From NCBI RefSeq assembly GCF_000301055.1, contig NZ_JH932300.1:171643-235642 (forward strand): DNA of 64,000 nt, read 5' to 3'. The position numbers and the translations under genes were made by a program. Every line of letters begins with the position of its first letter. The first letter of the stretch is position 1. The stretch is from Falseniella ignava CCUG 37419 (GTDB taxonomy: Bacteria > Bacillota > Bacilli > Lactobacillales > Aerococcaceae). Below the pieces are notes generated by a model, which did not search any database, was not told the origin of the DNA, and saw only the letters and a list, made by a program, of their open reading frames with translations. This document shows, in pieces, positions 57,549-59,974 of the stretch.

Positions 57549-58736
57549 TTAAATAACGCCTAATTCTTTACCAACTTTTTCGTAGACTTTTAGCACTTCG
57601 TCCAATTGTTCCTTCGTATGAGCCGCTGTTGGCATATTACGAACACGCCCTGTACCACGCGGAACGGTAGGGAAAACAATGGATTTAGCATAAACGCCTT
57701 CTTCTTTCAAACGACGAGAGAAGGTTTGTGTTTTATTTTCATCACCAATAATACATGGCGTAATTGGTGTTTCAGATTGTCCGATATCAAAGCCTAAGTT
57801 TTTCAGACCTTCTTTAAGGTAGCGGCCATTTTCCCATAATTTATCGTGTGCTTCAGTTGAAGCCATCATTAATTCAATTGCTTTGGTTGCTGCTGCTGCG
57901 GCACCTGGTGTTAGTGAAGTAGAGAATAGGAATGGACGAGCTCTTACTTTAAGCCAGTCAATCAATTGTTGAGAACCAGCAACATAGCCGCCTACAACAC
58001 CTAAAGCTTTAGAGAGGGTTCCCATTTGCATGTCAATATCTTTTTGTGCATTAAAGTGTTTTACCGTACCAGCACCTTTACCCATAACGCCTGAACCATG
58101 TGCGTCATCAACATAAGTAATTAAGTTATATTCTTTAGCAATTTCAACGATGCCTGGAATATTTGCAACGTCACCGTCCATTGAGAAGACACCGTCAGTG
58201 ATGTACATTACTTTATCGTATTCGCCACTTTCAGTAGCTTCTTTAGCTTTAGCACGTAAATCGTCCATATCTTGGTGTTTTACACGGATGATTTTTGCTC
58301 CAGAAAGACGACAACCATCAATAATCGATGCATGATTTAACTCATCAGATAGAATCGCATCGCCTTTACCAATAACTGCAGCGATAGCTCCCATATTACA
58401 GTTAAAGCCAGATTGGAAAGCAATGGCTGCTTCAGTTCCTTTGAACTCGGCAATTTTTGCTTCGAGTTGATCGTGAATAGTTAAAGTTCCGTTAATTGTA
58501 CGGACCGCGCCAGCTCCGACACCGTAATGAGTAGTGGCTTCGTTTGCTTTTTGAATCATTTCTTCGTTCGTAGCAAAACCTAAGTAGTTATTTGAAGATA
58601 GGTTAATTAATTCTTTACCGTTGACGTTGATGATTGGGCCATTTGGTCCGTCAACCGTATCGATTTCATTATATAACCCATTTTCTTTTAACTCTTGCAA
58701 ATTTTTTGCTAAAAATTCTTCAAGTTTTTGACTCAT
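57549..58736 (-). CDS. kbl: Glycine C-acetyltransferase (2-amino-3-ketobutyrate CoA ligase)
   Basis: 395 residues. PLP enzyme cleaving 2-amino-3-ketobutyrate with CoA to glycine and acetyl-CoA. [21 protein letters not shown], the PLP lysine in [13 protein letters not shown] and [16 protein letters not shown] are visible. TAGGAGG precedes the ATG. A cre-like sequence (58792-58805) lies in its upstream region, but no sharp promoter was found. Confidence 0.93.
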
Positions 58737-58886
58737 AATAATCCTCCTATAATTTATTAATAAAATACTATGTTTTCAGTTTAGCAGATTATTCAAGCGT
58801 TTTCTAGCAATCGCTAACATTTGTAACATGAGAATTTAATGAGATGTTTATGCCTCTGAGTTTGTAAATGATAGATTGTAAAATTA

Positions 58887-59658
58887 ATTGCGACAAACAA
58901 AAAACTCATAACAAGTTCGTGTAAAATGTTAGTAACCACAAAAACACACACGGAGGACCTGTTATGAGCTACAAACATCTTACCATAGAAGATCGTTCAA
59001 AAATAGAAATACTTTATCATGAAGGCTATACAGCGAGTCAAATTGCTGAAGGCATCGGGCGTCACCGTTCGACGATTTATCGAGAACTCAACCGTGTTAA
59101 GTCAGCCAGTTACGATGCTCAATTGGCTCAAGCTAACGCTACTGAACATCAATCTCTCAAAGGTCGTCGTCCTAAACATACGCCCGAACTCATTCAAGAT
59201 ATTCAAACAAAGTTAGAATTAACTTGGTCTCCCGAACAAATCGTAGGACGCTGCTATCAAAATAGATTATCATTTAAAACAATTTATAACTAGATCTATC
59301 AAGGCGTCATTGAGGTCTCGCTAGACTACGACTACCTGAGACAAAAAGGGAAACGACGCAAAACTCAGGAAACCAGAGGTAAAAGTAAAGAATGTCTCGT
59401 TACTTTTGCTGAGCACAAGAGTCGCTTCTATATCGCTTTAAAGATGCCGAATCGATCGAAGGAATCTATGATTTCGACTGTAAATCAGTTGATCCAAATT
59501 TTCCCTAAACGCACAGATCTAGTTAAAATTACGGAACGTGAACTTTTCAATGCATTATGGTTGATAAATAATCGACCTAGAAAATGCTTAGATTTTAAAA
59601 CACCTTTTGAAGTACTCATGTACGAACTCGTTCAGTTAGAATGACTTTTTGTCGCAAT
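58887..59658 (+). mobile_element. Internally deleted IS30-family insertion sequence
   Basis: ATTGCGACAAA at 58887 is matched by TTTGTCGCAAT ending at 59658, forming terminal inverted repeats around a broken transposase. AATTA occurs directly outside both ends (58882-58886 and 59659-59663) and may be a target duplication. The element is about 770 bases, against roughly 1 kb for intact members, because of two internal deletions. Confidence 0.8.
58964..59644 (+). pseudogene. Broken IS30-family transposase
   Basis: The N-terminal helix-turn-helix (HLTIEDRSKIEILYHEGYTA, SQIAEGIGRHRSTIYREL) is intact. TAG at 59291 stands where relatives have Trp (KTIYN-stop-IYQGV). Beyond it the same frame runs to 59644 but appears to lack two blocks. 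One falls after TQETRGK, joining directly to SKECLVTFAEHKSRFY, and one after LIQIFPK, joining to RTDLVKITEREL. From memory of IS30 proteins, the missing blocks hold both catalytic Asp and the Glu. Not functional. Confidence 0.88.
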
Positions 59659-59974
59659 AATTATTGCAATTTATCTAATCAAAAAAGTATTTCTTGACTT
59701 AAATGAACACCAATACATGATCTAATTATATGAAAAAAATCTGGAAATAATCGACGTTTATTTCTGGAAAATACTTTAAAATAAAGGATTAAAAAGCTAG
59801 ATAGATCAAGCTTTTATGTTAGATAAAGATTTGATACTCTATAGACAAAATGGTAATATGGTAAAGAGTTATTTATTAATTTACTATGAGGAATCCTGGC
59901 ATCTGGGGGTTGAGGAGCTCTGTAAACTGATAATATAACGCTTTCATAACGACATGTCGGAGGTGATTTTCTGA
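59659..59974 (+). other. Intergenic region before the V-ATPase operon
   Basis: No gene is supported here. The likely operon promoter is TTGAGG (near 59914) with TATAAC (near 59938), and the half-site CGCTTTCA after it resembles half a cre box. GGAGGTG (59959) is the ribosome site of the first gene. The rest is plain AT-rich DNA. Confidence 0.4.

Follow-up and report, generated by a model that had tools for sequence, protein, structure and literature searches.

A defective IS30-family element of Falseniella ignava probably formed by two in-frame deletions between short direct repeats

Deletions between short direct repeats can occur independently of RecA, the block located between the two repeats being lost (PMC5426353). 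MITEs and other non-autonomous derivatives of insertion sequences retain the ends of the element from which they derive and lack a working transposase, the MITEs being given as 50-500 bp (PMC10969869). In the IS30 family, changing singly each of the three putative key residues of ISApl1 abolished the formation of circles (PMC10916398). One IS30 subgroup is found in Facklamia languida, Dolosicoccus paucivorans, Fundicoccus ignavus, Peptoniphilus and Anaerococcus, and its members share a helix-turn-helix N-terminus, terminal inverted repeats and the order of the frame.

The element described here lies in a window of 64,000 nucleotides (the whole stretch of DNA that was analysed) from Falseniella ignava CCUG 37419, which belongs to the family of Facklamia and Dolosicoccus. 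It presents the N-terminus, the inverted repeats and the frame order of the IS30 subgroup and differs from IS30 insertion sequences in lacking all three catalytic residues and in containing an amber codon. As in the RecA-independent deletions of PMC5426353, blocks located between two short repeats are missing, whereas the deletions of the window are inferred from comparison only. As in the MITEs (PMC10969869), IS-derived ends are kept without a working transposase; however, the element is a single copy of 806 bp, is mostly composed of the transposase gene and gives no sign of spread. We estimate at roughly 0.9 the probability that it represents a dead and decaying single IS30-family copy, formed by two deletions between short direct repeats.

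The element extends over positions 58870-59675 of the window, slightly more than the 58887-59658 delimited by the first-pass annotation. Its terminal inverted repeats (Table 1) reach a score of 18, obtained by none of 2000 shuffles, the best of which scored 17. Elements of the IS30 family have a short target duplication of about 2 bp; here an AA/AA duplication is possible, by eye, if the ends lie one base further out, their exact position being uncertain. The host genome (1.77 Mb) is assembled in 6 contigs and the element lies within a contig of 885,512 bases, where it occupies the gap between two divergent genes (58737-59974). From the reading of the translations, the minus-strand neighbour (57549-58736) is a glycine C-acetyltransferase-like gene, and the plus-strand genes from 59975 onwards form an apparent V-type ATPase operon.

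Table 1. Coordinates of the features of the IS30-family element, in positions of the window
Feature	Position	Strand	Basis or remark
Left terminal inverted repeat	58870..58897	+	28 bp; 23/28 match right end
Surviving 5' part of the IS30 transposase gene	58964..59293	+	ORF list; 109 codons including helix-turn-helix, TAG-ended
Amber codon	59291..59293	+	TGG (Trp) in 4/4 relatives compared at base 59292
Transposase frame after amber	59294..59644	+	Open through both joins to stop codon
6-bp in-frame tandem duplication GACTAC GACTAC	59324..59335	+	Alignment; copies 59324-59329 and 59330-59335
Join 1	59373..59383	+	Single CCAGAGGTAAA; in relatives, two copies 102 bp apart; 34 codons lost
Join 2	59500..59509	+	Single TTTCCCTAAA; in close relatives, two near-identical copies 162 bp apart; 54 codons lost
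Right terminal inverted repeat	59648..59675	-	Pairs with left repeat, 23/28

The transposase frame runs from an ATG at 58964, preceded by a GGAGG motif read from the sequence, to a stop codon at 59642-59644, and is interrupted by the amber codon. Ahead of this codon, residues 2-44 match the helix-turn-helix profile HTH_38 (E 4.9e-15), in agreement with the first-pass annotation, which had considered that the DNA-binding domain and the ends remain. Read through the amber codon, the frame matches the NCBIfam model transpos_IS30 (NF033563) with 105 bits for a cut-off of 80. The same annotation had described two in-frame joins downstream of the amber codon, one at an RGK motif and one at an FPK motif, and both were recovered in alignments, with 102 bp and 162 bp missing, respectively. 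It had not noticed the GACTAC duplication, which is missing in all seven aligned relatives covering the site and whose doubled 12-letter string was not found in the 12 loci checked.

DNA of the element was matched in 18 of 60 genomes, the host being counted in both figures. The relatives used for comparison include Facklamia languida CCUG 37842 (G029), Dolosicoccus paucivorans DSM 15742 (G001), Fundicoccus ignavus (G015) and a genome apparently of Hutsoniella sourekii (G019). The nearest pieces, in D. paucivorans, display 94-97 percent DNA identity over matches to the left half, and the copies seen there end at contig edges. In the F. languida copy (L040) the catalytic part is complete and the 3' end is damaged. 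A genome of the same order and another family (G157) yielded a transposase frame that is open over its full length, at about 86 percent DNA identity and with the motifs GHWELD, SDRG and NEN.

Alignment with a full element of the same genome had been proposed, and the host assembly yielded no intact copy of the element; the repeats were seen instead in two partial copies of this genome and in other genomes. The first partial copy, own2 (L007:1152-1728; G000 C1:639651-640227; 577 bp), is a second copy of the same element, whose right end is identical to that of the window copy over 24 of 24 bases. It contains three stops and a different deletion, with few bases in common at its join (by eye). 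The other, own3 (L008, reversed; G000 C2:578287-578718), is an internal piece encoding an open 151-residue frame with the catalytic region, devoid of the DNA-binding part and of either element end; its left edge starts inside the RGK repeat, at AGAGGTAAA. Both copies are about 90-91 percent identical to the window copy and neither carries the joins.

At the RGK join, where GGTAAAAGTAAA is located at 59378-59389, F. languida, a further genome (G021), own3 and G157 all show 102 extra bases in the alignments. The intact G157 gene bears the perfect 11-bp repeat CCAGAGGTAAA on both sides of this block, 102 bp apart, the AGGTAAA of the two copies being at positions 735 and 837 once the locus is reversed. 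CCAGAGGTAAA is also the left copy in own2 and the right copy in own3 and F. languida. The left copy of own3 starts only at AGAGGTAAA, that of F. languida (TCAGAGGAAAA) differs by two bases, and in G021 one base differs in each of the two copies. The RGK motifs that the first-pass annotation attributed to intact family members are present before and after the first lost block in relatives.

At the FPK join, where TTCCCTAAACGC is located at 59501-59512, 162 extra bases are present in G021, own3 and G157. F/L-P-K motifs likewise occur before and after this second block in relatives, as had been proposed. The right copy of the repeat is TTTCCCTAAA in own3 and D. paucivorans, whose left copies read TTTCCCGAAA and TTTCCCCAAA, respectively, that of F. 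languida being TTTCCCTAAA, so that the left copy of the close relatives can be written TTTCCC(G/T/C)AAA. The repeat is imperfect (9/10) within own3 and within D. paucivorans, and perfect only when the left copy of F. languida is set against the right copy of another genome. In G157, an LPK and an FPK protein motif stand 162 bp apart, and at the DNA level the repeat is weak and interrupted by scattered mismatches; the repeat of join 2 is therefore a feature of the closer relatives. Immediately left of TTTCCC, the window copy has an A where the left and right parents both have a T.

The probability that such homologies arise by chance was evaluated on own3, the sole remnant of the host genome holding both ends of both blocks, by scoring the homology across the junction of every deletion of 30-299 bp (67,095 junctions). 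The homology of join 1 was matched by 10 of these junctions (about 1 in 6,700) and that of join 2 by 39 (about 1 in 1,700). Considering exact matches in own3, the 9 bp of join 1 are equalled or exceeded at 1.3e-4 of the random junctions, and the 6 bp of join 2 at 2.2e-3 of them. The slippage between short repeats initially put forward is well sustained for join 1, where the intact relative contains the repeats, and for join 2 in close partial copies, the repeat being weak there in the intact G157. Deletion between repeats is most likely the origin of the two joins, a model built on the sequences of relatives rather than on a direct parent and, for join 2, on close partial copies.

Two separate deletions would have removed the DNA between short direct repeats, each leaving one repeat; the repeats measure 11 bp at join 1 and, at join 2, agree over about 9-10 of 10 bp. 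The route would most likely have been replication slippage or single-strand annealing without RecA. The 6-bp tandem duplication and the nonsense mutation arose as well, and the helix-turn-helix stub may still be made, with no sign of selection keeping it.

The consequence for the catalytic core was evaluated in the numbering of a 312-residue relative (L041), the catalytic residues being assigned by motif. As already proposed from the sequence, the DDE residues (D164, D223 and E256) all fall in the lost blocks. In F. languida, RGK occurs at positions 136 and 170 and FPK first at 212, which means that the first block takes D164 and the second takes D223 and E256. The three residues are identical in all of the 28 match rows, among 77 loci searched, that begin no later than residue 26, extend to residue 287 and are stop-free; these rows are not independent, since one locus (L126) contributes two of them and certain Fundicoccus places are counted twice. 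Having lost the three catalytic residues, the window copy is predicted to be unable to catalyse its own transposition and, as judged by the absence of the DDE triad, it is a defective IS30 derivative and not a working member of the family.

An element with preserved ends could be mobile through a transposase produced elsewhere, and the short form would then be a non-autonomous element moved, now or formerly, by a resident IS30 for example. Both ends of the window element are present and the host genome contains four copies (L061-L064; G000 C1:783250, C1:642826, C1:835498 and C2:566514) of another IS30-family element, which are 99.1-99.9 percent alike and encode a 366-residue stop-free frame of putative activity. 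The left end of the window element resembles the left (18/20) and right (17/20) ends of this four-copy element, neither score being reached by any of 1000 shuffles. However, its right end resembles them only weakly, with scores that 44 and 202 of 1000 shuffles attained. Recognition by the transposases of different IS subgroups is usually restricted to their own ends.

A deleted IS30-family form seemingly copied to a new site was observed in the Anaerococcus sp. MAG JALEUV01, of whose 16 matches three were read (L143, L155 and L163). L143 (1390-2300) and L155 (1390-2198), which agree at 96 percent over 811 bp, are flanked on the left by different sequences. The same internal deletion, distinct from the joins of the window copy, is present in both, where it breaks the frame and removes the first catalytic Asp. 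Both carry further frameshifts or stops, and the third copy, L163, ends before the deletion. In the simplest reading, a second site received a copy of the deleted form, possibly by mobilisation in trans; gene conversion between copies is also possible, as is misassembly, because L155 is truncated within its copy by the end of the contig.

Against a mobile short form, a single place spanning both joins was found in the host genome, that of the window itself, and the same holds for the 76 genomes of the family, with at most 10 candidates scored in each, and for the 395 genomes of the order, with two candidates scored in each. These two sets overlap and both include the host; any match to the element was obtained in 6 of the 76 and in 7 of the 395 genomes, host included. 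The MITE-type spread, with several copies of the deleted form at different sites, was not seen in either set. The search for other copies of the short form, suggested by the first-pass annotation, likewise returned none beyond that of the window in the 60 genomes searched, host included. No match was obtained in IMG/VR, searched by one exact join-1 pattern, and the short form was not found in phage records. None of the 19 PLSDB plasmid records matched covers 80 percent of the element, the best reaching 17 percent, and among the papers found no title names it. In the tblastn view, the two gaps were seen together in 0 of 70 loci, many of which are incomplete and leave at least one join uncovered, and a recurrent deletion hot spot was not retained. 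We therefore consider a non-autonomous element mobilised in trans as improbable. Mobilisation by an intact copy, or binding of IS ends by the 109-residue stub, as first suggested, would be possible from the sequence and is unsupported, the short form being represented by one copy and the host genome having yielded no intact version of the same element.

The interpretation as a dead copy formed by deletion can also be set against selection for a shortened protein. According to this alternative, the deleted frame encoded a catalytically dead transposition repressor binding the element ends, later cut to the 109-residue stub; it would fit with the three in-frame length changes, the helix-turn-helix still matched and the GGAGG motif ahead of the start codon. 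The three length changes of the coding region are all multiples of three (1 in 27 by chance), the two lost blocks among them, a weak hint that the frame may have mattered when they arose, too weak to outweigh the pattern of substitutions. This pattern was established over 672 positions covered by at least two relatives, by counting the sites where the relatives agree and the window copy differs. The copy-specific changes comprise 5 synonymous, 11 non-synonymous and 1 stop (the amber codon), for a neutral expectation of 28/68/5 percent (P = 0.52 for 5 or more synonymous changes); with 17 changes, two of which (59330 and 59334) lie beside the duplication and depend on the alignment, the test is weak. 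These substitutions are compatible with an absence of selection on the short frame. Moreover, the amber codon lies within the frame of the supposed short protein, and no other instance of the short form turned up in the genomes searched, which makes a selected repressor very unlikely. Little credence can similarly be given to the proposal that the dead IS30 protein binds the element ends and damps related resident IS30 elements, a function that the 109-residue stub would still perform.

Repeats present in several copies can mislead short-read assembly, but an assembly or chimera artefact joining different copies is hardly credible, given that the window copy sits inside the 885,512-base contig and that own2 and own3, at about 90-91 percent identity, are without these joins and therefore could not supply the joined sequence.

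Read as a dead copy formed by deletion, the element is ordinary as a decayed insertion sequence and has little meaning beyond its own case. It provides a small and clear example of an insertion sequence losing its catalytic core through repeats of its own gene, and a warning to annotators that a frame open across such joins can still be a dead gene. Elsewhere in the host genome, a stretch (L006 / L009; G000 C2:426798-426848) that escapes the right-end pattern even when 3 mismatches are allowed gives a weak match to the right end of the element and its flank, with 80 percent identity over 50 bp (E 6e-5).
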